Below are positions 602-15,351 of a stretch of DNA of 39,199 bases, piece after piece. The position numbers and the translations under genes are program-made. This stretch comes from Nitrosopumilaceae archaeon. GTDB taxonomy: Archaea; Thermoproteota; Nitrososphaeria; Nitrososphaerales; Nitrosopumilaceae. Position 1 is the first letter of the stretch. The number at the start of each line of letters is the position of its first letter. The notes under the pieces were generated by a model that was not told the DNA's origin, did not search any database, and saw only the letters and a program-made list of their open reading frames with translations. The DNA lies in assembly GCA_024644385.1 (NCBI GenBank), contig JAHELB010000011.1:1-39199 (forward strand), in the 5' to 3' direction.

Positions 602-920
602 GGTTTTTGTACAATTGGACTTGTTTATTTAGATTAGTTCTTGAATGAAATTTTTGGCATGTGTTTTTGCAGAAATAAAATTTGAAAAAAGGTTTAGTAC
701 AGTAAAATAATTTTAGCTAAAATTTGTAACATTATTAAGCTACAAAACATGTTTTTTTCTTCCTAGTGACGATCATATTATTAAATTTATTTTTTAATTA
801 AAATAAAAACCTCAAAAAAATTTTATTTAAAAATTTTTAGTTTTAAAATAAAATAAATACAAAGCGGGAACAATTTTAAATAACACATCAAAAATCATAT
901 GTTGGGCATTGAGAGGTAAT
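602..920. other. AT-rich divergent intergenic region
   Basis: About 320 bp without a credible gene between the minus-strand GAPDH and the plus-strand operon starting at 921. It contains a perfect 16-bp palindrome, AATTTTAGCTAAAATT, at 709-724, which may be chance in such AT-rich DNA. A likely plus-strand TATA box is TTTTAAATAA near 874-883, about 40 bp before the ATG at 921. No RNA gene was recognised. Confidence 0.5.
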
Positions 921-1136
921 ATGGAAACTGCATTAATTAAAAATGGTTTAGGAGTTATTCCATATTATATAATCCAAAATAAATTTTTAAAAAAATCATT
1001 TAGTTTACTTCAAGGGTACAATTTTAATGAAACTTGTAATCTTAATGAAAAACCTCTAAATGGCATTAAACTTCCTTACTTGAAGACTCCATATTCTAAA
1101 AAAGTTCCTTTACATTCTTTTGATGAGGGGATTTAA
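921..1136 (+). CDS. Small hypothetical protein (71 aa) heading the PIG-L/ATP-grasp/GT2 operon
   Basis: ATG at 921 is preferred over the in-frame TTG at 909 because GAGAGGT lies just upstream of it at ribosome-binding-site spacing. The protein is small, has one mildly hydrophobic N-terminal stretch (LGVIPYYIIQ) and a basic, proline-containing C-terminal half. It has no recognisable domain. It ends four bases before the deacetylase start, so it is probably cotranscribed and translationally coupled with the sugar-modifying genes that follow. It could be a remnant of a longer enzyme, but no coding signal continues upstream. Function unknown. Confidence 0.55.
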   Translation: METALIKNGLGVIPYYIIQNKFLKKSFSLLQGYNFNETCNLNEKPLNGIKLPYLKTPYSKKVPLHSFDEGI

Positions 1137-1139
1137 AGA

Positions 1140-1766
1140 ATGGAAAACGTTTTGTTTCTTAGTCCACACCCAGACGACGTAGAATTGGGTTGCCTTGGAA
1201 CAATAAACGAGTACGTGAAAAGAGGTTACAACGTTTTTGTTGCAATAGCCACTGATGGTGAAAGGGGAAATATTGACCCGGATAAATATGATCGAATAGA
1301 AGAAAGTGTTGAGTGTTTGTCCAAAGTTGGTGTGAAAAGAGATAACATTTTACCATTTCATCTACCAGATACTAAATTAAATGATCACCGAACCGATATT
1401 TTTGAAATGGTTGAGGGATTTTGTATCAAAAATAATATTGACACGATATACATTAATTCAAACAAGGATTACCATCAGGATCATTTGGTAGTTTTTGAAG
1501 AGGCACTACGAGCAGCGCGAAAAGTAAAAAATATTCTTACTTACGAATCAAACTCTTCTACATTTTCTTCCTTTTCTCCTAACTACTTTGTGAACGTCTC
1601 AGAGTTTATTGACGAAAAAGTAAACTATCTAAAATCTCATAAATCTCAGGACGGAAAACACTTCATACTAGACCACTCTGTGAAATCCTTGGCAAAGTTC
1701 AGAGGCAACCAAACCAAGAACCTTGATTATGCTGAAGCCTTTGAAGTTTTCAGAATGACAAATTGA
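1140..1766 (+). CDS. PIG-L/LmbE-family N-acetylglucosaminyl deacetylase
   Basis: The 208-aa protein starts with the metal-binding signature SPHPDDVELG (His10, Asp12, Asp13) and has the second metal/catalytic motif YHQDH (His112, Asp114, His115), both diagnostic of PIG-L (LmbE/MshB/BshB) zinc hydrolases. The C-terminal RGNQ...YAEAFEVFR also fits the family. These enzymes remove the acetyl group from N-acetylglucosamine linked to a lipid, nucleotide, inositol or other aglycone. No signal peptide is present, so it is cytoplasmic. Neighbours are an ATP-grasp ligase 12 bp downstream and a membrane glycosyltransferase. That order suggests a sugar is de-N-acetylated, possibly acylated by the ligase, and transferred. 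The exact substrate cannot be read from sequence. Confidence 0.88.
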   Translation: MENVLFLSPHPDDVELGCLGTINEYVKRGYNVFVAIATDGERGNIDPDKYDRIEESVECLSKVGVKRDNILPFHLPDTKLNDHRTDIFEMVEGFCIKNNIDTIYINSNKDYHQDHLVVFEEALRAARKVKNILTYESNSSTFSSFSPNYFVNVSEFIDEKVNYLKSHKSQDGKHFILDHSVKSLAKFRGNQTKNLDYAEAFEVFRMTN

Positions 1767-1778
1767 GGTATAGACCAA

Positions 1779-2735
1779 ATGAAAATTTTGGTAACGGGAG
1801 CTGGTGGACCAGCTGGTGTATGTATAATCAAAGATTTAAAGAAACACCATGAGATAATCGGTGTAGATTCTGATTTTTTAGCATCGGGACTTTTTCTTGT
1901 TGAAAAAAGATATACCGTTCCACCATCTGATTGTCCTGAATCTATTTCAAAAATTTTAGAAATTGTAAAAAATGAGCAAGTTGATGTCGTTATTCCGACG
2001 GTAGAAGAAGAGTTAATCAATTTTGCCAATAAGGTTGTAGAGTTTCAAAAGAACGGGGCAGTTGTCATTGTTTCAAACCCAAAATCAATTGAAATATCGA
2101 CGAATAAATTTGATACATACAATTTTTTTCGTGGAAGTAAGTACTGTCCTATGGTTTATGATAAAAAAAATGTAAAGTTTCCTTGCGTAGTCAAGCCAAC
2201 CAATTCAAGAGGTTCTAGGGGATTTTATTTGTGTCACTCTAAAGAAGATTTAGATTTTGCATTAAATAAGAACAAATCAGAGTTAGGAGATTCAGTAATA
2301 ATGGAATTTCTTGAGGGTGTAGAGTTTTCAGTTTATGGAATATCTGACCTTAAAGGAAATCCGTTGGTCAGTGTTGCAAACAAGAGAATAAAAGCTACCG
2401 GTGAATCAAAAAAGGCTCAAATTATTGATGATAAAGAGATCTTAGAAACGGCAAATGACATTGCAGCAAAATTGGAATTGTATGGTCCGTGGAACATACA
2501 GATCATGAAAACAACTAATGGACCAAAATTAATTGAAATAAATCCAAGATTTGGGGGGACTCTTTCCCTTCCAATAGCCTCAGGATTAGATTTCGTAGAG
2601 ATTTCAATTAGAATCTTTAGGAAAGAAGAGATTAATCCAAGTGAACTTGAATATGAGAAAGACCTAATCATGACAAGGTACAACGAGGAGATATTTGTAC
2701 GACCTACCCAATTGAATTTATCCGGCGTGGTGTAA
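1779..2735 (+). CDS. ATP-grasp family ligase (CarB-like)
   Basis: 318 aa. It has an N-terminal Rossmann-like segment (ILVTGAGGPAG, residues 3-13), then an ATP-grasp fold. CVVKPTNSRGSRGF (~136-149) carries the ATP-binding lysine and the glycine-rich loop. IMEFLEGVEF (~174-183) is the hinge. LIEINPRFGG (~251-260) holds the Glu and Asn that bind magnesium. The family makes acyl-phosphate intermediates and joins a carboxylate to an amine or other nucleophile. Placement between a de-N-acetylase, which would produce a free amino sugar, and a glycosyltransferase makes ligation of an amino acid or other carboxylate to that amino group an attractive but untested role. The stop codon abuts the next start (TAAATG), indicating one operon. 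Confidence 0.82.
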   Translation: MKILVTGAGGPAGVCIIKDLKKHHEIIGVDSDFLASGLFLVEKRYTVPPSDCPESISKILEIVKNEQVDVVIPTVEEELINFANKVVEFQKNGAVVIVSNPKSIEISTNKFDTYNFFRGSKYCPMVYDKKNVKFPCVVKPTNSRGSRGFYLCHSKEDLDFALNKNKSELGDSVIMEFLEGVEFSVYGISDLKGNPLVSVANKRIKATGESKKAQIIDDKEILETANDIAAKLELYGPWNIQIMKTTNGPKLIEINPRFGGTLSLPIASGLDFVEISIRIFRKEEINPSELEYEKDLIMTRYNEEIFVRPTQLNLSGVV

Positions 2736-4202
2736 ATGTATATTGAAGTTTTAATCTACATTACACTCCTAATAGGGTATAGCATTGTTTCTCTGTCTTT
2801 AATTTTGGTATTTCTTGCAATTTTCAACAAGGTTAGATATAAAATAAAAAAATATGTTTTTGACGAAAATATTAGACCGTATATTTCGGTAGTGACACCT
2901 GCACATAATGAGGCAGATGTAATTGAGAGAACGATCAAAAAATTTATCCAGGCATATTATCCAGAAGATAAAAAAGAGTTGATTATTGTTAATGATGGTT
3001 CAGATGATGACACAGAGAAAATCGTGAGAAAGTATGCATACAAAATAATAGATTCAGAAACAGGGTTGGCAACTTATAAAAAACAAACTCAGCCTTTACC
3101 AATTAACCAAAACATCGTTTTGGTCAACAGAAAAATAGGTGGTTTAGGAAAAGCACAAGTTTTGAATGATGCTAAAAAGTATGCTAAAGGGGAACTAATC
3201 TTCGCAATTGATGCAGATATACAGTTACACAGAAATTCTTTGCTTCAAGCTGTAAGGCATTTTGCTGATGAGAGAGTAGGAGCGGTTATTGGATATATCT
3301 CCATTGTCGATAAAGGTGACATCCTAACAGGTTTTATCAATTGGGAGTTTTCTATTGGCCAAAAAATTACCAGAGTTGGCTATGACACCTTAGGGATTCA
3401 TTATATTATTCCTGGAGGATGTGGGATTTTTAGAAAGAGTATTTTCAAAATTCTTGGTGATTACTCTTCGGAAACTTTGGCTGAAGATACTGACATGTCG
3501 TTTAAACTTCTTACCAAAACTAAAAAGAAGGTACATTTTGATCCCTCAGTTCAAGTTGTGGCAGATGAACCTGTACAATTAAAGAGTTTATGGAATCAAC
3601 GAGTGAGATGGGCTAGAGGAAATATAGAGGTAACGAAAAAAAACATTGGACTTTTTGGAAATATTAAATATGGAAAGGGGGTAACAATTGGATACCCCTT
3701 CTGGTTAGCATCGGTAATAATGCCATTAGGTTTTGTTCTTACTGCTACAGGCTTCTTGACAATGAATTTGCTTGACATTTCAATGGAGCCTTTTCTTTTT
3801 GTTTCCAGAATAATCGCAGTAATGTTTGTTGGAGCTATAGCATATACGATTATTTCTAACAAAGGAAAGTATTGGCTTCATGGAATTGTGTCACCAGGTT
3901 TCCCTATCATTATAACGATGTTGTCTGCTATCTTATGGGCAGATGGTATTCAAGGACTAATGGAAACGGTCGAATATCCCGAATACACAAAAGCTACCAT
4001 CATAACACTTCTACTATGGTTATTGGTTCCTATCCCACTTACACCTGCAGTAGTGAGACTTTCTACCAAATTTCCAAAATTGGCTAATTTTATTCAATTA
4101 ATTTTATTTGGGTATTGGTCCATTTTAATCGTGAGTGGAATTTACGCACACTATAAAGAACTAAAAGGCGAAGAAAGAGTGTGGATTAAAACAATAAGGT
4201 AG
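2736..4202 (+). CDS. Membrane-bound family 2 glycosyltransferase (processive type)
   Basis: 488 aa with an N-terminal transmembrane helix (~5-30), a cytoplasmic GT2 domain (~48-300) and several C-terminal helices (~310-475). All processive GT2 motifs are visible: VNDGSDDDTE (~85-94), DAD at 159-161 (UDP-sugar/metal), ED at 250-251 (catalytic base) and QRVRW at 288-292. This is the cellulose/chitin/hyaluronan/PNAG-synthase type, which polymerises and may extrude a glycan. Its ATG follows the ATP-grasp stop without a gap. The substrate is unknown; the PIG-L partner suggests an aminosugar. It is only distantly similar to the synthase at 12795-14375, so it probably serves a different glycan. Confidence 0.85.
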   Translation: MYIEVLIYITLLIGYSIVSLSLILVFLAIFNKVRYKIKKYVFDENIRPYISVVTPAHNEADVIERTIKKFIQAYYPEDKKELIIVNDGSDDDTEKIVRKYAYKIIDSETGLATYKKQTQPLPINQNIVLVNRKIGGLGKAQVLNDAKKYAKGELIFAIDADIQLHRNSLLQAVRHFADERVGAVIGYISIVDKGDILTGFINWEFSIGQKITRVGYDTLGIHYIIPGGCGIFRKSIFKILGDYSSETLAEDTDMSFKLLTKTKKKVHFDPSVQVVADEPVQLKSLWNQRVRWARGNIEVTKKNIGLFGNIKYGKGVTIGYPFWLASVIMPLGFVLTATGFLTMNLLDISMEPFLFVSRIIAVMFVGAIAYTIISNKGKYWLHGIVSPGFPIIITMLSAILWADGIQGLMETVEYPEYTKATIITLLLWLLVPIPLTPAVVRLSTKFPKLANFIQLILFGYWSILIVSGIYAHYKELKGEERVWIKTIR

Positions 4203-4388
4203 AATTTAGGAAATATGGCAATAAACTAATCAAACATTAAATCCAGATTTTTTTTCAACCTAGAATTGGTATTTTTGGATAAAATTATGATTCTTAATTA
4301 AATTAATATTTTTTATCAAAAAATTTTTTCACTCTTTAGCATTTCGCAAATTTATAAAGTAAAACGTTATAATGAAGTATTATTAATC

Positions 4389-5606
4389 TTGATTTTATTG
4401 TTATACAAAATAATTATTTTGCCGATTTTAATTTTTGGTTTAATTGGGTTTAATTCACAAGCTTTTGGTGAAACCTTTGGGATCGAAAATGATGAGAACG
4501 GAGGAGATTGTAATGACATTGGAACTTGGGATAACGTAAATAAAACTTGTTTTTTAAATAAAGATTTGGCAATAAATGATCAAATCCTAATTATTAATAC
4601 CAATGGAGTTACTTTAGATGGTCAAGGACACCATATTATTGGGGATGGGTTATCGGATGGAATCTATATTGGGAATAGCAATAACCTAAAGATTCTTAAT
4701 CTTCAAATATCTAACACCCGAAATGGAATTTTCCTAAATAATTCATCAGATAATACTATTGCAAATGTTACCACAGTTTGGAACACTGAAAATGGGATAT
4801 GGGCTATTCATGATTCGGATAACAATATAATAAAAAATAATCTATCTGGATTTAATATACAACATGGGATTAGTATAGGTGATGCAGATAATAGTTATAT
4901 CATAGATAATTTGGTTACTCATACAAAAGATGCCATAAGGTTAGAAAAAGCAAATTACAATACTGTTTCTGGAAATTATGTTTGGGAAAATAGGGTTGAA
5001 GGTATTGATTTACATGAATCATCAGAAAATTTAATTTATAATAATAATGTCTTTGAGACCTTTGCTATTTCAGTTTTAGATGATTGTGAGGAATGTGCAA
5101 GTCAATATTTTATGAATAGTGTTGGTAATTATTATCAAGTTTACGATGCAATAGCTGAAGGGTGTAATGATTCTGATTCTAACGGAATTTGTGATGAGCC
5201 ATATATTTTTGATGAAGGAATGGATAAATTTCCATCTGTGAAAATTATAGAGGGCGAATCACCAAACCCCTACATTCATGATTATCCCTTAAAATTCGAT
5301 GATTGGGGATTGGAAGAAAAACCTCTTGGATCAATAAACTTTATCGATGATTGGAAACAGTATCTTGCTTTATGGTATTACGAGGAGAATATATCCGAAC
5401 AAAATTTTCTTACGGCTATTGAATACTTGATAAAAAATGAAATTATTACAATCCCTGTCATATCTGTCTCTGAACCTTTAGAAGATGGCATTTCAGATCC
5501 TGTAAAGATAAAACTGGGGTTATGGGGGCATGGTCTGGTTGATAATAACGAATTTATCAAAATATTAAATTACCTAGCGGAAAAGGGGATAATTTCATAT
5601 GATTAA
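4389..5606 (+). CDS. Secreted right-handed beta-helix (NosD/CASH-like) protein with two C-terminal thaumarchaeal modules
   Basis: 405 aa from a TTG start. A signal peptide (LLLYKIIILPILIFGLIGF, cut near residue 27) is followed by parallel beta-helix rungs (~60-225) rich in N-x-I/V repeats and a GNYY...DSDSNGICDEPY segment typical of NosD/CASH proteins. These folds bind or epimerise/cleave polysaccharides (AlgG, pectin lyases) or occur as NosD in copper-enzyme maturation. At the C-terminus are two degenerate ~37-residue modules of the W-x5-W-Y...F-x2-A-I-x-Y-L-I type also found in the next three secreted proteins. Given the glycan genes around it, a surface polysaccharide-modifying or -binding role is likelier than nitrous oxide reductase maturation. 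It converges on the gene at 5699-8989, with a T-rich gap. Confidence 0.72.
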   Translation: MILLLYKIIILPILIFGLIGFNSQAFGETFGIENDENGGDCNDIGTWDNVNKTCFLNKDLAINDQILIINTNGVTLDGQGHHIIGDGLSDGIYIGNSNNLKILNLQISNTRNGIFLNNSSDNTIANVTTVWNTENGIWAIHDSDNNIIKNNLSGFNIQHGISIGDADNSYIIDNLVTHTKDAIRLEKANYNTVSGNYVWENRVEGIDLHESSENLIYNNNVFETFAISVLDDCEECASQYFMNSVGNYYQVYDAIAEGCNDSDSNGICDEPYIFDEGMDKFPSVKIIEGESPNPYIHDYPLKFDDWGLEEKPLGSINFIDDWKQYLALWYYEENISEQNFLTAIEYLIKNEIITIPVISVSEPLEDGISDPVKIKLGLWGHGLVDNNEFIKILNYLAEKGIISYD

Positions 5607-5698
5607 AAATTGGATTGTTTTTCTAATAATTTTATAAATTAAATAAATTCAATTCCTGCAATATAGAAATTAATAGGAAATATGTATTACCTTTAGGA

Positions 5699-8600
5699 TC
5701 ATACAGATATAGTTATCATTCCATGATTTATCAGATATTCTATTCCATAAATAAAATCATTGTCTGGGATTATTCCTTCTGCCCACCAACCCGCTGTGTC
5801 CTTTACCCAATTAGGTATCTCTGAACCTCCAAAACCTTGACTAGTTTGTGGGGTCTGTAATATTTCCTCTTTAATTAAAAACTGAATTCCTTGTAAAAAT
5901 GATTTGTCGTCAACGTGTCCATCTCGCCACCACCCTGCGGTATTTTTTATCCATCCAGGAATAATCTTTGGACCAAGGGAATCATTTGAAGTCTCAGAAA
6001 CAATTATTCTCGAAACATTTTGATTAATTTTTTCAATTGGTACCAAAGAGATATTTTCTGCCCTTAATTTTTCAAATAAATTTTCTAATTCCTTGAACTG
6101 ATCACGGTTTATTACGTTTACATATGCACCATTTCTATAAACTGAAAAATCCTGTGAATTAATTGTAATAATAGCATATCCATGAGTATCAATTCCTTTT
6201 AAAACATCTGACAAGGTTTCATCGCTTGGAATCTCTATCAATCTTTTTTCTAATTGATTAAATTTTGCAGTAAAAGCAAGTGTTGGAAATCTGTAAAGAG
6301 ATTCATCTTGCAATGGGAAAGGAGGAGTATCTGTACTCAGACCTGCACTTAGGTGGGTATATTCATTCTCTAGCAGTGCTTTTTCGGTATCTTTATTGAA
6401 TTGATATTTTGGAGGGACAAAGATTTTTGGGGTTACATTAAATTCTTCAAAAATTTTATTTGTAGATTTTTTTATAAGATCACTTTGTTTTTGTTTATCC
6501 AAATTTGTAACAAGTGTATTGTTTAGTCCATGATTCGCAATGGTTATTTCATTATTTTCAATTCCTTCTTTTATTAACTCAACAAGATTCTCATCTTCAC
6601 CTAGTGTAGTAATAGAAACTCCAATAGTAAGAGGAACATTGTTTTTTGAAAATATTTTAATTAATTCTGTTTGAGCTTTATTTAACCAAAAATCTTGCAC
6701 ATTATCTAGTTTGAACGAAACACAATTGCAAGAAAATTTAATGTCTTGTTGATAATAAATTATTGGTTCAGGTAAAACTTTAGATGCAGGGTCGGAGGCG
6801 ACATTTGGATCTGGTTCGAGTATCGGATCAGTGGATGGTAAAGTATTCTCAGTAATTCCTGCAATTACCGCTCCAGTCATCCATGGATGAAGTTCACAAT
6901 AATACTCGTAAGTTCCTTCAATTGTAAATTGATGAGAAAATGTTTGACTTTTACCAAATGATCCACTATCAAAAATGCCGGCAGATTTGCTAGTTACTGT
7001 ATGTAATTTTACATCATCATTTGTCCAAGTTACCGTTTCATTCAAATCTACTGTTATGGTATTCGGAGTGTAAATCTCTGAAGGTAAAATAATCACATTG
7101 TTGGGGGTAATTTGGCCTGAACTTGGTGCAGGGTCAGGTGCAGGGTCAGGTGCAGGATCAGGTGCAGGATCAGGTGCAGGGGGAGGAGTAGTAAAAGGAA
7201 CAGGGATTGGCTGTTCTAAATTTATTTGATGTAAATCATATTTATTCTGAATCCCCGCAATAACTATTTGTGAATCTACCCATTTAGGATCCTTTATGCC
7301 ATTTTTTAAAACTGAAGCCGTGTAAACTCCAGATGGAATACTCGAAAAGAAAATTTCGCCATTTTTGCTAATAAAGGATTTTTGATATTGCTTATTTTTT
7401 TGATCTGTAAGTAGTACTGAATAATTTGAATTGTTATTTACAATTTTATTTAATTCTGTGTCATATAGTCTAAAGGTAATTAATTCCTCTACAACAGCTG
7501 GTACAGGCAGGACAATTTTTTGTGCTTGAGATATACCCTGATGTATTTTTATTTTTGGGACAGTAGTAAGTAAAAATTCATCAAAATATACTTCAGCGAT
7601 ATAATAGTCCTGTTCTCGATTGGTTGACTGAAGCCAGTATCTCATCGTGTCTCCATTTTTATCAGTTTTTCCAGAAGCTTGTTGATCACCATCATTAGAT
7701 TTTATTATGACAGTGGCATTCTCAACTGGTTTTTCTCCCCTTTCAAAAAACACATTTAATTTTAAACCCCCAGACTGGGGAATGTTGATATTTAATTTTT
7801 TAGACTCGATTAATTCTACATATCCCACTTCGGTATACATCCCGTTAACATAAACTTCTATTTTGTATTTGTGATCTTTTGGGAGAGATATGGTTTCGGG
7901 ATTACTATCTAAATTTTTTTCTAAAAATGGAGTTTTTTTAGAATCTTGGTAAATTTTGTAGTTAGTTTGGAAACCACTAATTCTGTCACCATTTATAGTC
8001 TTTATTTCAATTTGCAAATTTTCTTTTTTTTCCAAGTCAGATGTAATTATTGGACCTGTGATTTGATCCGGTAATGGTAGTGTAGGATCTCTCTGATTCA
8101 AATTAAAATTATTTTGAGTCCCTGCAATAGATATTCTAGTATCCATCCAAAGGAGATCTTTTACACCATTTTTTAAAACTGAAGCCGTGTATACACCGGA
8201 AGGAATGTTGGAAAAGAAAATCGCCCCTTTATTGGCAGTTATAGTACTTTTAAAGGAAAGATCATTTTTCCCTACAAGTAGCACAGAAAAGTTTCCATCT
8301 GTTTTTAGAATTAGGTCAGATTCTATATCATATAATCTAAATGTAATCAAATCTTCGACTACAGCCGGTACCGGGACAACAATTTTCTGGTCTTGTTGGA
8401 TACTGTGTTGTATTTTTATTTTTGGGACAGTAGTAAGTAAAAATTCATCAAAATATACTTCAGCAATATAATAATCTTGATCACGATTAGTTGATTGTAA
8501 CCAGTATCTCATTGTATCTCCTTTTTCATCTGTTTTTCCAGAAACCTGTTGTTTCCCATCATTAGATTTTATTATAACAGTGGCATTTTCGATAGGTTTT

Positions 8601-8989
8601 TCTCCCCTTTCAAAAAACACATTTAATTTTAACCCTCCAGACTGTGGAATACTAATATCTAGTTTTTTGGGTTCATTTAATTCCACATATCCAACTGTGG
8701 TATACATTGAATTAGTAAAAAATTCAATTTTGTATTTATGACCTTTTGGGAGATTAATGGTTTCAGGATTACTATCTAAATTTTTTTCTAAAAATGGAGT
8801 TTTTTTAGAATCTTGGTAAATTATGTAGTTTGTTGACCCAGTACCTATTCTATCACCTCCCGTAGATTTTATTTCGATTTGTAATGATTCTTTTTCTTCA
8901 GCGTATGATGAAACGAATGGTAAAACCAACAAAAAAATAGAGAGAAGTGCACAAATTTTAAAAATTTTTAAATTCAAAATAATACTCAT
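5699..8989 (-). CDS. Large secreted protein: duplicated beta-sandwich region, blue-copper domain, polysaccharide-deacetylase-like domain, two C-terminal modules
   Basis: 1096 aa. Signal peptide at 1-30 (cut near SSYA-EE). Residues ~34-300 and ~323-590 are two copies of one unit, probably prealbumin/CNA-B-like beta sandwiches. A (PAPD)n linker (~604-622) leads to a cupredoxin domain (~625-710) with type 1 copper ligands His663, Cys698, His701 and Met704; the CELHPWM loop has amicyanin-like length. A CE4/NodB-like deacetylase domain follows (~750-990). Compared with the family, it appears to lack key residues: LDNV for the motif 1 Asp pair, HGLNN for HxxxH, and INSQ where the paralogue has IHPQ. 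It may therefore be a pseudoenzyme. Two PxW-[IV]-K-x2-AGWW modules end the protein (~1010-1045, 1058-1095). Start ATG 8989 has GGGGTAATGAT just upstream. It is divergent from the GH18 gene. Confidence 0.78.
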   Translation of the reverse strand: MSIILNLKIFKICALLSIFLLVLPFVSSYAEEKESLQIEIKSTGGDRIGTGSTNYIIYQDSKKTPFLEKNLDSNPETINLPKGHKYKIEFFTNSMYTTVGYVELNEPKKLDISIPQSGGLKLNVFFERGEKPIENATVIIKSNDGKQQVSGKTDEKGDTMRYWLQSTNRDQDYYIAEVYFDEFLLTTVPKIKIQHSIQQDQKIVVPVPAVVEDLITFRLYDIESDLILKTDGNFSVLLVGKNDLSFKSTITANKGAIFFSNIPSGVYTASVLKNGVKDLLWMDTRISIAGTQNNFNLNQRDPTLPLPDQITGPIITSDLEKKENLQIEIKTINGDRISGFQTNYKIYQDSKKTPFLEKNLDSNPETISLPKDHKYKIEVYVNGMYTEVGYVELIESKKLNINIPQSGGLKLNVFFERGEKPVENATVIIKSNDGDQQASGKTDKNGDTMRYWLQSTNREQDYYIAEVYFDEFLLTTVPKIKIHQGISQAQKIVLPVPAVVEELITFRLYDTELNKIVNNNSNYSVLLTDQKNKQYQKSFISKNGEIFFSSIPSGVYTASVLKNGIKDPKWVDSQIVIAGIQNKYDLHQINLEQPIPVPFTTPPPAPDPAPDPAPDPAPDPAPSSGQITPNNVIILPSEIYTPNTITVDLNETVTWTNDDVKLHTVTSKSAGIFDSGSFGKSQTFSHQFTIEGTYEYYCELHPWMTGAVIAGITENTLPSTDPILEPDPNVASDPASKVLPEPIIYYQQDIKFSCNCVSFKLDNVQDFWLNKAQTELIKIFSKNNVPLTIGVSITTLGEDENLVELIKEGIENNEITIANHGLNNTLVTNLDKQKQSDLIKKSTNKIFEEFNVTPKIFVPPKYQFNKDTEKALLENEYTHLSAGLSTDTPPFPLQDESLYRFPTLAFTAKFNQLEKRLIEIPSDETLSDVLKGIDTHGYAIITINSQDFSVYRNGAYVNVINRDQFKELENLFEKLRAENISLVPIEKINQNVSRIIVSETSNDSLGPKIIPGWIKNTAGWWRDGHVDDKSFLQGIQFLIKEEILQTPQTSQGFGGSEIPNWVKDTAGWWAEGIIPDNDFIYGIEYLINHGMITISV
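7125..7180. repeat. 12-bp tandem repeat encoding the Pro-Ala-Pro-Asp linker
   Basis: The plus strand carries about 4.7 tandem copies of GGTGCAGG[GA]TCA, coding on the minus strand for repeated PAPD. It forms the spacer before the copper domain of the 1096-aa protein. Because the unit is a multiple of three, copy-number changes would only alter linker length. Confidence 0.85.
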
Positions 8990-9250
8990 ACTATCATTAC
9001 CCCAGTATAGATATGCAGGTCCCTTTTTTATTTATTCTCTACCATGTTTTGACTTTTTTAAAAAAATGTATTTTTATTTTGTTACAAATTTCCTCGTGTC
9101 TTCTATACTTTATTTTAAAAATTTTGAAGGGGTAAATTTTAACGGTATTTTAAAAACAGAATAATTATTCATGAGTAAAAAATGGTTTTAATGTTTAATA
9201 TCTTAAATATGAATTAGTTTTTTGTAAATATCCATAATGGAGAAAAATTA

Positions 9251-10621
9251 ATGAAACGCATAACTAAATTTTTACCCATAATTTTTTTAGGATTTATTTT
9301 AACTTCTATTTCAGGACTTCAGTTTGGATCAAATGAAATCATAGAAACTTTTGGGGAGCCTTCTAAAAGAATAGTTGGGAATTTTCCTGAATGGAAATCC
9401 GAAAAAATTGATGACATCGATTATTCTAAAATAAGTGATATAATGTATTTTCACATAAAACCAAACCCAGATGGAAGTTTAGATACTAGTGATGTTAATT
9501 TTAATGATCTTAAAAAAATTAGAAACAAAGCCCACGCCGCAGGAGTAAATGTCTTAATTGCCATAGGAGGTTGGGGATCATCAGATGAGTTTCCATCTGT
9601 AGCAAAAGACCCTGAATTAAGAACAAAATTTGTGAGAAATGTAGAGAATTTTATCACCAAAAATAATCTTGATGGAGTAGATATTGATTGGGAAACTAAA
9701 ATTAATCAAGAAAAAATTGACAACCAAGACCTATTATTGTCGGATTTATCTGATGTATTGCATCCTTTAGGAAAATTAGTAACAATCTCAGTGATTGGAA
9801 ACAAATTAGAATTGAAATCTACTGCAGCTGATCATGTAGATTGGGTAAACCTAATGTCATTCAACATGAACGATGATAATGTTCATCATTCAAGTTTTGA
9901 TGATTCAATTGCTACTTTGCATCTATATGAAAACGTAGGAATTCCTAAAGAAAAACTCAATTTGGGAATCCCATTTTATGGAAGACATAATGAAAAAGGT
10001 GATGAAAAGTCCTACGAAGATATTGTTTCAGAATGTTCGCCTTCCCCATCTGATGAATATTGTAAAGGCTATTTTTTTAATGGTATAGAAATGGTGAAAC
10101 AAAAAAGTCGTCATGTGTTACATAATGGGTATGGCGGAATAATGATTTGGAGTTTAGCCCACGATACCAATGATCAAACATCACTTCTTAACGCAATATA
10201 TGAGATATTTCCTGACCCAAATCTTCCTGAAAAAAAGAATCCCGTTATTACTGAAGTCAAAAAAACTTCAAATGGAATACTGATTTTTTGGATGCAAGAA
10301 GAACCAATTGCACCTAGCTACGATATTTTCATAGATGGTATCGATACTGACGGTCAATATCGTACTGAATCTAGTCCTCAGCTAGTTGAATATGGAGAAT
10401 GTTTTATTGTCCAGGCCAGATATTCTGAAGTGGATCTCTTATCTACAGAGGTTTGTTTAGACATTGAATCCCCAAGTACCACTGAACTTACTTCTGATAA
10501 AAAAATTCCAGAGTGGGTCAAAAATATAATGGGGTGGTATGCAGAAGGATTAACGGAAGAACATGAAATAATATCTGCAATTAAATTTTTGATTGAAGAG
10601 GGGATTATCATTTTAGATTAA
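9251..10621 (+). CDS. Secreted GH18 family glycosidase (chitinase-like) with C-terminal module
   Basis: 456 aa. The N-terminal hydrophobic segment (~4-22) is a signal peptide. The GH18 TIM barrel covers ~38-320 and keeps the catalytic signature DGVDIDWE (141-148, Glu148 the proton donor), plus the strand VLIAIGGWG (~101-109) and LMSFNMND (~201-208). A Fn3-like beta domain (~327-405) and one thaumarchaeal C-terminal module (IPEWVKNIMGWYAEG, ~418-455) follow. GH18 enzymes cleave beta-1,4-linked GlcNAc polymers; a GH18-like domain also forms the C-terminal half of bacterial PgaB. TATA-like CTTAAATAT near 9202 and GGAG before ATG 9251 support this start. It faces away from the copper/deacetylase gene and converges with the gene at 10748, so it probably trims a glycan made by the nearby synthase. 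Confidence 0.87.
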   Translation: MKRITKFLPIIFLGFILTSISGLQFGSNEIIETFGEPSKRIVGNFPEWKSEKIDDIDYSKISDIMYFHIKPNPDGSLDTSDVNFNDLKKIRNKAHAAGVNVLIAIGGWGSSDEFPSVAKDPELRTKFVRNVENFITKNNLDGVDIDWETKINQEKIDNQDLLLSDLSDVLHPLGKLVTISVIGNKLELKSTAADHVDWVNLMSFNMNDDNVHHSSFDDSIATLHLYENVGIPKEKLNLGIPFYGRHNEKGDEKSYEDIVSECSPSPSDEYCKGYFFNGIEMVKQKSRHVLHNGYGGIMIWSLAHDTNDQTSLLNAIYEIFPDPNLPEKKNPVITEVKKTSNGILIFWMQEEPIAPSYDIFIDGIDTDGQYRTESSPQLVEYGECFIVQARYSEVDLLSTEVCLDIESPSTTELTSDKKIPEWVKNIMGWYAEGLTEEHEIISAIKFLIEEGIIILD

Positions 10622-10713
10622 TGTGATTGTTTTGCAAAAAAATCAAATTAAAAATTTAAATTGAAAGGAAAATTAAAAATTTTTGAAGGCTAATAACACC
10701 TTTAAACGAAAAA

Positions 10714-10735
10714 AACTGAATTTGCAGGCTCAGTT
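10714..10735. terminator. Possible hairpin between convergent genes
   Basis: AACTGA (10714-10719) and TCAGTT (10730-10735) form a 6-bp inverted repeat with a 10-nt loop, followed by TTATTGTT. It lies between the convergent GH18 and deacetylase-like genes, where a bidirectional terminator is expected. Archaeal termination depends mainly on T tracts, so the hairpin's role is uncertain. Confidence 0.25.
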
Positions 10736-10747
10736 GTTATTGTTAAA

Positions 10748-12793
10748 TTATAATTCTATGGTAATTATTCCTTGATTTACCAAATAGTTTACCCCATAAA
10801 TAAAATCATTATCAGAGATTTTACCTTCTGCCCACCAACCTGCATTATCCTTTATCCAATCAGGTATTTCTGACCCCCCAATTCCTTGGGTGGTTGGCGG
10901 AATTTGCACAATATTCTCTTTAATTAAAAACTGAATTCCTTGTAAAAATGAATTATCATCTATATGTCCATCTCGCCACCAACCTGCATTATTTTTAATC
11001 CACAAAGGTATGACATAGGTATCAGAGTTAGTTTTTGGATTTTCATATTCAACCATACCTACTTTTTTGTTAATATCACCCAAAGAAACAATGTTGATTT
11101 TTTGAGCTTTGATGTTTTCAATGAGATTTCCTAATTCTTTAAATTGTTCTGAATTAATTGCATTAGTATATTCTCCCCCCTCATAAATTGAAAAGGCTTG
11201 AGGATGAATTGAAATTACTGCAAAACCATAATTTTGAATTCCATTCATGACATCCAAAGAGGTCTTTTCAGAAGAAATTCCTAAAATTCTATTTTGTGAT
11301 GGAATATATTCTCCGGTAGTAGCAACTGCGGGAAATCTATAAAGATACTCATCGCTAAATGGAAAAGGAGGAGAATCATTTAGCATGCTTGCACTAAGGA
11401 TTGTGTAACCATTATCAATAAGGACCTTTTGTGTATCGTCGTTAAATCTATTTTCCGGAGGTATGAAAATATTAGTAGTTACTTTTAGTTTCTCGTAAAT
11501 CTTATTAGTTGATTCTTGTAACATGGCATTTTGTTTTGGTTCATCAAAAATTGTATATGGTTTGGAATTCAGCCCATGATTTGCAATTTCAATTTTACCC
11601 TCTTGAATATTTTTAGATACCATATCATAAAGATATGAATCATTTCCAAATGAATCAATAATAACACCTAGGGTAATTGGAGTGTTATTTTTGGTAAAAA
11701 CGCTTATCAATTCATACTGAACATTGTTAAGCCAAAAATCTTGAACACCATCTAAACGGAAGGAAACGCAGTTGCAAGATAATTTGTAATTTTTAACGGA
11801 TGTATGGTAAATTTTCGGCTCTGATACTGGCTCTGATACTGGCTCTGATACTGGCTCTGATACTGGCTCTGATACTGGCTCTGATAGCTCCGTAGGATTT
11901 AGCGCAACCAAATCAAAATTATTTTGATTTCCTATAATGGTCAATCTTGTATCTGGCCATCGTGGATCTTTTACACCATTCTCTAAAACAGACACAGAAT
12001 ATATCCCTGAAGGGATACTTGAAAAGAAAATTTCTCCTTTATTCCCCGTCATGTAATTTTCTAACATAAGGTTATTTTTCCCTAGGATTTGTACTGAAAA
12101 ATTTCCATCTGTTTTAAGAAATTGATGAGATTCTGCATCATACAGTCTAAAGGTAATTAATTCTTCTACAACAGATGGTACAGGTATTACAATTTTTTGT
12201 TCTTGAGCTATGCCTTGCTGTATTTTTATTTTAGGAATACTAGCAAGCAAAAATTCATCAAAATATACTTCAGCGATATAATAGTCCTGTACCCTGCTTG
12301 TTGGCTGGAGCCAATATCTTAATGTATCACCATTTTGATTTGTAGTTCCCAATCGCTGTTGTTCACCATTTTGGGATTTAATTATTACCTTAGCCCCATC
12401 AATAGGTTTTTCTCCATCTTTATAGACTACATTTAATTTTAAACCTCCTGGTAGTGGAATATTAATATCTAATTTTTCTGAATTATTTTTTAAATTTACA
12501 TATCCTACTTCAGAAAACATTCCGTTTACAAAAACTTCAACTTTGTATCTATGGTCTTTGGGAAGTGTAACAGTTTCAGGATTACTGTCCAAATTTTTTT
12601 CTATAAATGGTGTTTTTTCTAGATCTTGGTAAATTAAATAATTTGTTTGATAAGCATCTATTCTATCCCCATTTGTATATTTTATTTCAATTTTTAGTGT
12701 TTCTGTTTCTTCAGAATATGATGAAGTAAATGGAATAACTAAAGAAAAGATTACTGTAAACGCACAAATTTTGTAAATATCAAATTTTTCCAC
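10748..12793 (-). CDS. Secreted polysaccharide-deacetylase-like protein with beta-sandwich region and two C-terminal modules
   Basis: 681 aa if started at the GTG at 12793, which has GGTGAT (a perfect part of the archaeal ribosome binding site) four bases upstream; an in-frame GTG at 12817 would overlap the synthase gene. Signal peptide at ~1-27. A single copy of the beta-sandwich unit duplicated in the 1096-aa protein follows (~33-295), then a (SEPV)6 linker (~303-326), a CE4/NodB-like domain (~340-570) and two AGWW modules. The deacetylase domain has RLDG for motif 1, HGLNS (second metal His apparently absent) and an intact IHPQAF motif. There is no copper domain. It is the third gene of the operon response regulator - synthase - this gene, so it most likely acts outside the cell on the synthase product, like PgaB/IcaB. 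Confidence 0.78.
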   Translation of the reverse strand: MEKFDIYKICAFTVIFSLVIPFTSSYSEETETLKIEIKYTNGDRIDAYQTNYLIYQDLEKTPFIEKNLDSNPETVTLPKDHRYKVEVFVNGMFSEVGYVNLKNNSEKLDINIPLPGGLKLNVVYKDGEKPIDGAKVIIKSQNGEQQRLGTTNQNGDTLRYWLQPTSRVQDYYIAEVYFDEFLLASIPKIKIQQGIAQEQKIVIPVPSVVEELITFRLYDAESHQFLKTDGNFSVQILGKNNLMLENYMTGNKGEIFFSSIPSGIYSVSVLENGVKDPRWPDTRLTIIGNQNNFDLVALNPTELSEPVSEPVSEPVSEPVSEPVSEPKIYHTSVKNYKLSCNCVSFRLDGVQDFWLNNVQYELISVFTKNNTPITLGVIIDSFGNDSYLYDMVSKNIQEGKIEIANHGLNSKPYTIFDEPKQNAMLQESTNKIYEKLKVTTNIFIPPENRFNDDTQKVLIDNGYTILSASMLNDSPPFPFSDEYLYRFPAVATTGEYIPSQNRILGISSEKTSLDVMNGIQNYGFAVISIHPQAFSIYEGGEYTNAINSEQFKELGNLIENIKAQKINIVSLGDINKKVGMVEYENPKTNSDTYVIPLWIKNNAGWWRDGHIDDNSFLQGIQFLIKENIVQIPPTTQGIGGSEIPDWIKDNAGWWAEGKISDNDFIYGVNYLVNQGIITIEL
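11817..11886. repeat. 12-bp tandem repeat encoding the Ser-Glu-Pro-Val linker
   Basis: About 5.8 near-perfect copies of GGCTCTGATACT on the plus strand, coding on the minus strand for repeated SEPV between the beta-sandwich region and the deacetylase-like domain. Low divergence between copies suggests recent slippage expansion. Confidence 0.9.
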
Positions 12794-12794
12794 T

Positions 12795-14375
12795 CTAATC
12801 ACCAATTCTCTTTGCACTAGTCCACGTAGCTTTTTTCCCTGTTAATTGTTCAAATATCGCCTTTAATAGTAAAAAGTCAACAATTTGTTTAAAACCAAAT
12901 AATAAAAATCCCGCATAAAATAATAATTTTGGGTCCTCATTATCAATTCTAATTGCCAAGGCGCACATTAGAAAATGGACCACGGTGAAAATTCCAGCGG
13001 CTTCTAAAACCCACAAACCGTCACCCGCTAGAACTCCTAGAACAACGTTTACCAGAGCGGTAAAACCAATAATCGGAGTTATTATCATTCCTAAAAAGAG
13101 GTAAGGTAATGCTAATTTCTGCAAATATCCAAATCTTGGATTTATTAATGCATCTGAATGTCTTTTTAAAACCTGAATATTTCCACGATACCATCGTTTT
13201 CTTTGCTTTTTAAAATCGGAAAAAGTTGAAGGTGCCTCAGTATATGCTACAGCTTTTACACTTCCTTGTGTGATCAACCCGGCCTTTAGAAGTTTTATTG
13301 TTTGGTCAAAATCTTCAACAATTGTTTCTTTTCCGTAAGAACCAGTTCCTGATACACATGATTTTTTAAATGCTCCCAAAGCACCTGGAACAACAGTTAT
13401 TGAACCAAATGCATCAAAAGCTCGTCTTATAACTTGAATTCCCGTAAGATATTCTAAAGCTTGGCACTTAGTAATCCAATTTACCCTGTTTCTCACTTTA
13501 ATATTACCAGCTACAGCAGCAACGTGTTTATCCACCTCAAATCCTTTTACAATTTCTTTGATCGAATTTCGTCCTATTATGGTATCTGCATCAACAACTA
13601 CAATGATTTCTCCTTTTGCATATACCAGACCATAGTTTAAAGCAGAAGCTTTTCCTCCATTATCTTTGTGTAAAACGCTTATTTTATTTTTAAATTCATT
13701 TGCTATTTCTAGAGTTTCATCAGTACTTCCATCATCAACAAAAATAATTTCTTTTCGAGGATATTGGGTTTCGAGCATAGACTCTAAAGTTTTTCTAATA
13801 ACTTTTTCTTCATTAAATGCAGGGATTATTACTGAGACCTTTGGATAGTTTTTTAGATCTGGTTGTAGGGTTTCACGATGTTTACTTACAACGGACATTG
13901 GAACAAATAACATTGTAGTCCAAAAAGAAATGGTCATTGCTGAAAGTAGAATTACTCTTGTTGGAGCCTCTGCCAAGGAAGTCCCCTCATAGGCAACCAA
14001 ACCTCCCATAACAAATGGTGAAACTATTAAAATAACTAAAAAAACTGAAGGTCCTTTTTTACCCTCTTTATTTTTTGAGAATAATTTATGATGAGAGTTA
14101 AACATATGATAAATTGCCAATCCGCCTCCCATACCCATTGCGACCACGCTTATTGGACCTAAAATATAGTAAATGGTGCCTGCAAGAAAAATGAAAATTG
14201 ATGCAGTTATGATTACTTGAACTGGGTCGGTTCGGATTTTTTTTTCGTTTTTAGACCGCTTCAGATTTATCCTTTTCATTTTTTCAACATAGTCAGGATC
14301 ACAGAACGCTGTAGGGCTTTTTGATTTAACAAATTGTGTGGATTCAATTTTTTGTTTTTGATTTGGATTAAACAT
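12795..14375 (-). CDS. PgaC/IcaA/NodC-like polysaccharide synthase (GT2, membrane)
   Basis: 526 aa. It has a polar N-terminus, transmembrane helices at ~53-72, ~75-90, ~110-128 and ~140-162, a GT2 domain at ~178-400, and further helices at ~418-450, ~458-474 and ~484-505. Processive GT2 motifs are complete: FVDDGSTDE (212-220), NGGKASALN (239-247), DAD at 262-264, ED at 354-355 and QRKRW at 391-395. The NGGKASALN and TVVPGALGAF segments resemble poly-beta-1,6-GlcNAc, chitin-oligosaccharide and hyaluronan synthases more than cellulose synthase. It probably polymerises UDP-GlcNAc and threads the chain through the membrane. It lies 19 bp downstream of the response regulator and its stop abuts the start of the secreted deacetylase-like gene, so the three are one operon. 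Confidence 0.87.
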   Translation of the reverse strand: MFNPNQKQKIESTQFVKSKSPTAFCDPDYVEKMKRINLKRSKNEKKIRTDPVQVIITASIFIFLAGTIYYILGPISVVAMGMGGGLAIYHMFNSHHKLFSKNKEGKKGPSVFLVILIVSPFVMGGLVAYEGTSLAEAPTRVILLSAMTISFWTTMLFVPMSVVSKHRETLQPDLKNYPKVSVIIPAFNEEKVIRKTLESMLETQYPRKEIIFVDDGSTDETLEIANEFKNKISVLHKDNGGKASALNYGLVYAKGEIIVVVDADTIIGRNSIKEIVKGFEVDKHVAAVAGNIKVRNRVNWITKCQALEYLTGIQVIRRAFDAFGSITVVPGALGAFKKSCVSGTGSYGKETIVEDFDQTIKLLKAGLITQGSVKAVAYTEAPSTFSDFKKQRKRWYRGNIQVLKRHSDALINPRFGYLQKLALPYLFLGMIITPIIGFTALVNVVLGVLAGDGLWVLEAAGIFTVVHFLMCALAIRIDNEDPKLLFYAGFLLFGFKQIVDFLLLKAIFEQLTGKKATWTSAKRIGD

Positions 14376-14394
14376 GATCCTGTTTATCCTTTAA

Positions 14395-15351
14395 TTATAC
14401 TACTGCGAGCTTGTAGTTACAGCTGCTTTGCCAATTTACATCTTCTAGATTGAATTTATTTTCGCATTTTAAACAAAGATATTCTGAATCTAGTTGGGAA
14501 AACACATCACTGCAATTATTACATATGTAATGATTTGGTAAAACTCTATAATCAACTCCTAATGCAACAATTTCTTTGTTACAACTAGGGCATTTGTCTT
14601 GGAGATAAGTTCTTTCCTCAGAAACATTTCCACAGTTATAATGTTCAATTAATTTTCCTAGTCGGAAGTGAGAACTGTTACAAGAAGGACATGAAAATAC
14701 CTGGGTTGTTTTTACAGAATTACATTTGTTACAAGAGATTTCCTTTTTCTCTCCAAGATTAACAATTTTTCCTTCTCGCTCTAATTCGTTAAGATGTAGC
14801 CTAATGGTTTCATCTGAAAATCCTATCATTTGTTCGATTAAATTAAGACTAACTTGTTTGGAAGAATTTAAAATAAAATCAACTCGGTCGATCACTTTAG
14901 TTTTAACTTCCTCCTCGGCATTTTCTAACATTTTTAGTTGTTCAGATTCTTTTTGGAAAAAGAAATCTTCTTTTTCAATGGTTTCAAAAGTATTTTTTAG
15001 ACTCTCAAATCTTATTGGCTTTTCCAAATATTGGTAAATTCCCAATCGAATTAGTTCCTTTACTCCTTCATCTTCTTTTTCAGTTGCAGTTTCTAAAATT
15101 ACACGTGCATTTGGTTGTATGTCAAGAATTTGAGTAAGAACTGATCTGCAATCCATGTCCGGAAGCATATAATCTAAAAGCACTATGGGAGGAGTATTTG
15201 CTTTGATTAGTTTTTTAAATTCCTTGACTGCAGTATAACCATTATCGCTAGAATGAATATCTCTGTAATCTAGCTTTTCTAAAAAACTCTTTAACAGCAT
15301 AGTTACCGCTGGGCTGTCCTCAACAATCAAAACTGGTGGTTTGGTAGTCAA
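14395..15351 (-). CDS. Response regulator: receiver domain, winged helix, multi-zinc-ribbon (TackOD1-like) output
   Basis: 318 aa from a TTG start. The receiver domain (~5-120) has the acidic pocket E11/D12, phosphoacceptor D60 (VLLDYMLPD), switch Thr in ILETATEKED and K111 (LEKP). A coiled segment (~130-152) leads to a winged-helix-like region (~153-200). Cysteine pairs follow: C207/C210, C221/C224, C240 with C254/C257, C277/C280 and C293/C296. The LIEHYNCGNVSEE stretch recalls the thaumarchaeal output domain TackOD1; that assignment is from memory. The protein probably transduces a histidine-kinase signal, perhaps with metal or redox input, to transcription. It heads the operon with the polysaccharide synthase. 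A likely TATA, CTATTTATAAG on the minus strand, is near 15416-15426. Confidence 0.85.
   Translation of the reverse strand: MTTKPPVLIVEDSPAVTMLLKSFLEKLDYRDIHSSDNGYTAVKEFKKLIKANTPPIVLLDYMLPDMDCRSVLTQILDIQPNARVILETATEKEDEGVKELIRLGIYQYLEKPIRFESLKNTFETIEKEDFFFQKESEQLKMLENAEEEVKTKVIDRVDFILNSSKQVSLNLIEQMIGFSDETIRLHLNELEREGKIVNLGEKKEISCNKCNSVKTTQVFSCPSCNSSHFRLGKLIEHYNCGNVSEERTYLQDKCPSCNKEIVALGVDYRVLPNHYICNNCSDVFSQLDSEYLCLKCENKFNLEDVNWQSSCNYKLAVV

Follow-up and report, generated by a model that had tools for sequence, protein, structure and literature searches.

Two of the described systems closest to the locus considered here couple a family-2 glycosyltransferase (GT2) to a protein of the CE4 fold. 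In the PgaC/PgaB (IcaA/IcaB) system, a processive GT2 synthase adjoins a secreted protein of this fold, and the poly-beta-1,6-GlcNAc (PNAG) that is made is deacetylated by the CE4 activity and cleaved by the GH18 one. In the NodC/NodB chitooligosaccharide system, the GT2 shares one operon with a CE4 protein of NodB1 topology. The PNAG deacetylases have the NodB2 order, in which the MT5 motif is N-terminal to MT1 (PMC10967932). The zinc ligands of CE4 enzymes are Asp-His-His, e.g., Asp206, His264, and His268 in BA0330, one of the two CE4 lipoproteins (BA0330/BA0331) that stabilise the cell wall of Bacillus anthracis (PMC4505593). The NodB fold can also hydrolyse without a metal, an example of which is the allantoinase PuuE (PMC10967932).

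The window, i.e., the whole stretch of 39,199 nucleotides that was analysed, comes from a 1.56 Mb genome of the Nitrosopumilaceae with Nitrosopumilus, Nitrosarchaeum, Nitrosotalea, and Nitrosotenuis as kin. The initial annotation had read six genes at positions 4389-15351 as an archaeal PNAG/chitin-like exopolysaccharide locus. Domain profile searches (GT2, CE4-like, GH18, beta-helix, REC) found all six at the places and with the identities given there. The range itself starts too late, because a PIG-L gene, an ATP-grasp gene, and a second GT2 with QxxRW, all on the (+) strand between 1140 and 4202, belong with the locus. The named genes form two layers rather than a single conserved PNAG locus. 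The features are as follows:

2-601, (-): type II GAPDH gene, the far flank of the island
602-10747, no strand: lineage-specific island of 10.1 kb between the GAPDH gene and CE4b
1140-1766, (+): PIG-L family cytoplasmic de-N-acetylase (BshB1-like), by profile search; island gene
1779-2735, (+): ATP-grasp ligase (PylC/CPS-like), by profile search; island gene
2736-4202, (+): GT2b, second processive-type GT2 (QRVRW), by profile search; island gene
4389-5606, (+): right-handed beta-helix protein (NosD/CASH-like, PF13229/NosD), secreted; island gene
5699-8989, (-): CE4a, paralogue of CE4b (Polysacc_deac_1, 1.1e-07), hydrophobic N-terminus; island gene
5708-5962 and 10757-11011, both (-): tandem helical-hairpin C-terminal domain, also at about 20 other sites of the genome
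9251-10621, (+): GH18 protein (chitinase-like; PF00704, 5e-42), secreted; island gene
10748-12817, (-): CE4b, secreted partner of the synthase (Polysacc_deac_1, 3.3e-08), hydrophobic N-terminus; core gene
12795-14375, (-): processive family-2 polysaccharide synthase (GT2, PF00535, 1.1e-34), membrane helices on both sides; core gene
14395-15351, (-): response regulator with REC, weak winged-HTH, and zinc-binding TackOD1 domains (PF00072, 5e-18; PF18551, 2e-22); core gene

The first layer is the conserved core. The regulator, the synthase, and CE4b apparently form one operon, with a gap of 19 bp between the first two genes and an overlap of 23 bp between the last two. The synthase is present in 60 of 121 Nitrosopumilaceae genomes and absent from 61. 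In 39 of the 40 Nitrosopumilaceae loci read, which cover about 11-12 genera, a CE4-fold gene adjoins it on the same strand, and a REC/TackOD1 gene lies near it in 29 of the 40 (counted by eye). Such anatomy and conservation make a synthase-dependent surface-glycan system the likely identity of the core, whose polymer chemistry, export, and control are put forward conditionally below. A search of a limited literature collection found no earlier description of the locus. Work on N. viennensis by Kerou et al. in 2016 reportedly treats EPS genes.

The second layer is the island, which is found in two of the 121 family genomes and runs in the same order in the window and in genome G073: orf75, PIG-L, ATP-grasp, GT2b, beta-helix, CE4a, and GH18. 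In the sister loci L042, L043, and L063 it is absent, and the GAPDH gene follows CE4b after 41-43 bp. Among the 40 synthase loci, only that of G073 joins the GH18, CE4a, and beta-helix genes to the synthase as in the window, and this company is rare because the genes are carried on the island. GT2b was likewise found in two family genomes only (G000 and G073). The PIG-L, ATP-grasp, and GT2b genes form a tight run, which suggests that an amino sugar is de-N-acetylated and then re-acylated in the cytoplasm before it is polymerised.

The GH18 protein keeps the acid motif DxxDxDxE as DGVDIDWE (residues 141-148). Its MxYD motif is changed to MSFN in the window and to MAFN in G073, and the paralogues of the genus have MAYD. 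In the Serratia chitinase ChiB, the Tyr214-Asp215 pair supports catalysis, and the activity of the island enzyme may be reduced or shifted. GH18 occurs in six of the 121 family genomes, all of the window's genus, and in none of the 111 outside it; one of the six (G067) has no synthase match. The 248-residue neighbours of the synthase that carried a GH18 label are not GH18 genes, because their genomes have no GH18 match at all; the labels are most likely matches to the shared C-terminal domain.

This domain closes CE4a and CE4b as tandem helical hairpins of about 43 residues each (IPxWIKNNAGWWxxGxIxDxxF), and degenerate copies close the GH18 protein and, as two repeats, the beta-helix protein. 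A Pfam search with the repeat gave no match. All 39 sampled Nitrosopumilaceae genomes have between 6 and 22 matches to the domain, whereas the 211 other genomes of the phylum sample have none. It is present also in genomes without the synthase, and it is therefore a general surface module rather than a glycan-specific one. It is a candidate family-specific module of surface retention. Such a module is what would be expected if the place were an accumulation hot spot for unrelated genes of surface proteins near a glycosyltransferase, and the presence of GH18, CE4a, and beta-helix genes at the locus in two of 121 genomes fits that explanation as well. The explanation is nevertheless quite unlikely, as the core of regulator, synthase, and CE4b recurs with conserved neighbours, its parts are fused or adjacent in other phyla, and the island is collinear in a second genome. 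The earlier expectation that the genes would stay together in relatives, as one joint system, thus holds for the synthase with its overlapping same-strand CE4-fold partner and for the regulator, but not for GH18, CE4a, and the beta-helix gene as conserved members.

The synthase carries the motifs DDGS, DADT, ED, and QRKRW, which are invariant across 21 homologues. In its model (mean pLDDT 74.5), helices follow the QRKRW region, and the fold aligns with the Chlorella virus hyaluronan synthase 7sp6 (TMq 0.60, rmsd 4.0 Å); in the fold search, BcsA had the best E-value. The family stands apart from the ArnC-type transferase in the tree, where the placement of E. coli PgaC, BcsA, ArnC, and NodC is unreliable owing to their long branches, so that only the separation from them is used. 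Assignment as a dolichol-phosphate transferase, named beforehand as the grouping that would count against a processive enzyme, is rejected on motifs, fold, and tree. Polymer synthesis by this protein is what its motifs and model predict.

Named relatives of the synthase that align along almost its entire length with 43-44% identity belong to Chloroflexota (Dehalococcoidia), then to haloarchaea and Bathyarchaeota. A CE4-like/DUF2334 neighbour is present in haloarchaea, e.g., beside the Halorussus copy, and in another lineage of Thermoproteota (L186). The relatives from Bacteroidota and Armatimonadota are about 1130 residues long, and both Bacteroidota proteins tested are GH18-CE4-GT2 fusions, which gives the association of the three domains a precedent. 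The synthases of loci L046, L054, L056, L058, L060, L068, L070, and L080 have an extra cytoplasmic N-terminal region with the Cys/His pattern CxxC...WYHxxC. This region is zinc-finger-like, is missing in the window's genus, and is possibly a regulatory input.

CE4b consists of a signal segment, prealbumin-like beta-sandwich repeats, a CE4/NodB1-fold domain, and the C-terminal tandem WIKNNAGWW domain. In its AlphaFold model, the N-terminus is a hydrophobic helix, beta-sandwiches and a CE4 barrel (pLDDT about 90) make up the body, and two helical hairpins stand at the C-terminal end. The NodB fold is backed by Pfam, by profile alignment to PDB entries, and by Foldseek, which retrieved pilin-type sandwiches as well as CE4 proteins, among them the CE4 pseudoenzyme BA3943. 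In CE4a, the N-terminal repeats are duplicated and a cupredoxin domain is inserted; the protein groups with the CE4b clade of the genus in the domain tree.

When CE4b is aligned by profile to solved CE4 proteins, the DD motif is matched by RLDG, and HxxxH by HGLNS. The Asp-His-His triad is therefore incomplete, as DG with HGLNS in CE4b and DN with HGLNN in CE4a; both domains keep the first Asp and the first His and lack two of the three zinc ligands. Of the two secreted deacetylase-like proteins proposed originally, the CE4 fold and the hydrophobic N-termini stand, but deacetylase activity of the two is unsupported, both metal sites being broken. Such a loss is common among the synthase partners. 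Counted per protein, with motif state scored per domain (about 18 partners have tandem CE4 domains), an intact CE4 domain is present in 6 of 54 partners but in 11 of the 14 remaining CE4 proteins, and 48 of 54 partners against 3 of 14 non-partners have none (Fisher 2e-6, relatedness ignored). The intact partners are those of L043, L059, L066, L100, and L116, together with one beside another GT2 (L198); the L043 and L066 members fall inside the window's own genus, and the state switches at least eight times on the CE4 domain tree. The pair at L198 (contig C12 of the same genome, 15126-18705) is a second CE4-GT2 pair, with an intact CE4 metal site. In one partner clade, the replacement motif NGW[SN]FEDFT (e.g., NGWSFEDFT) is fixed, which argues for a changed and retained function rather than mere decay. 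A synthase partner that lost its deacetylase site several times over offers a clear, testable case of enzyme-to-pseudoenzyme conversion.

With its zinc site lost, CE4b probably serves not as a deacetylase but as a non-catalytic guide or anchor that binds the glycan. Its inactivity is only probable because some partners are intact and PuuE works metal-free. Alternatively, the glycan could be chitin-, chitosan-, or hyaluronan-like and CE4b an active hydrolase, either metal-independent, as the PuuE precedent allows, or atypically liganded through the first Asp, the first His, and the motif-5 His that it retains; the match of the GT2 fold to hyaluronan synthase agrees with such a product. This alternative is unlikely, since none of the three ligands is left in the Nitrosotalea-type partners, where the motif-5 His position is N or S, and in several genomes an intact CE4 paralogue lies next door.

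The possibility of a true PNAG system can be considered at the same point. Among the NCBIfam families, the synthase indeed matches PgaC_IcaA (TIGR03937) best, and the Bacteroidota kin fuse GH18, CE4, and GT2. That match scores 198.1 bits, however, and the equivalog cut-off is 422.3; the MT5-like VISIHPQAF of CE4b lies C-terminal of MT1-MT3, i.e., in the NodB1 order, whereas PNAG deacetylases have NodB2; and both metal sites are broken. The GH18 protein belongs to the chitinase family and is not recognisable as the hydrolase that forms the C-terminal part of PgaB, and the domain is lacking in the 111 family genomes outside the genus. A PNAG system is therefore very unlikely, and the PNAG identity of the initial annotation is unsupported.

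The third core gene encodes a response regulator whose TackOD1 (80.0 bits, gathering threshold 32) and REC (65.6 bits, 30.2) domains both pass. The function of TackOD1 was termed obscure by Galperin and colleagues in 2018, and its proteins are recorded in type IV pilus loci as well (PMC5847659). Outside the family, 22 of 32 Thermoproteota genomes encode TackOD1 no more than 2 kb from the synthase, at a rough chance expectation of about 1% per genome. Within the Nitrosopumilaceae sample, it is present in all 25 genomes with the synthase versus 5 of 14 without it (p = 9e-6, relatedness ignored). TackOD1 proteins adjoin the synthase also in Bathyarchaeota and Chloroflexota, some of them with an Mrr_cat (restriction-endonuclease-like) domain, as in the Chloroflexota loci L120, L122, and L123. 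At L183 (G119, 2451-8327) and L184 (G041), ORFs of about 2000 residues adjoin a TackOD1-type regulator gene, and by Pfam that of L183 fuses a Vgb-lyase/NHL beta-propeller and a DM13 domain to a processive GT2. The linkage to the synthase offers the first functional hypothesis for this orphan output domain.

The preferred reading, held at a probability of about 0.62, is that the core is a synthase-dependent surface-glycan system with CE4b as its non-catalytic guide or anchor, TackOD1 in control, and the island in tailoring. The GT2 synthase, whose fold and motifs are seen, would polymerise a nucleotide sugar at the cytoplasmic face of the membrane and thread the chain through its own channel, like HAS and BcsA. 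CE4b, exported as its signal segment predicts, would hold the emerging chain with its zinc-less CE4-fold domain and is probably retained at the cell surface by its C-terminal tandem domain, which is common on Nitrosopumilaceae surface proteins. The TackOD1 regulator, given its linkage, would govern production. In the window's lineage, the island added a second synthase, the PIG-L/ATP-grasp cytoplasmic amino-sugar chemistry, a CE4b duplicate, GH18, and the beta-helix protein, and these proteins may modify the polymer or cut it back. Ammonia-oxidising archaea rank among the most abundant marine cells, and the conserved three-gene core is a defined target for their surface glycan.

Compared with PgaC/PgaB, the core has the same pairing of genes but differs in a synthase far under the equivalog cut-off and in a NodB1-ordered CE4 domain with a lost metal site; its GH18 is chitinase-type and lineage-specific only. 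Among the listed neighbours in the 40 loci, only the regulator and CE4 genes are conserved and no PgaA or PgaD was found; an outer-membrane exporter such as PgaA is not expected in archaea. The Bacteroidota fusions (L138, L132) have a homologous synthase domain (about 38-40% identity) with CE4 and GH18 in one polypeptide and a CE4 Pfam score of about 110 bits, whereas the archaeal genes are separate and the degenerate CE4 scores 34 bits. NodC lies on a distant branch (placement unreliable, long branches), and the NodB site is intact. BA3943 and BA0330/BA0331 have the CE4 fold without deacetylase activity, as proposed for CE4b; none of them is described as GT2-coupled, and BA0330/BA0331 retain the Asp-His-His triad. 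Hyaluronan synthase and BcsA share the fold, the transmembrane helices, and QxxRW with the synthase, but no PilZ match is present here, and a TackOD1 regulator is linked in place of c-di-GMP control. By analogy with the bacterial c-di-GMP effectors, the locus could tentatively represent a distinct class of synthase-dependent exopolysaccharide system whose GT2 synthase would be controlled by a TackOD1 protein. The class would span the Nitrosopumilaceae and other Thermoproteota, with Chloroflexota and haloarchaea sharing part of it, and in ammonia-oxidising archaea the chain would be received outside the cell by a CE4-fold guide or anchor that lost catalysis repeatedly.
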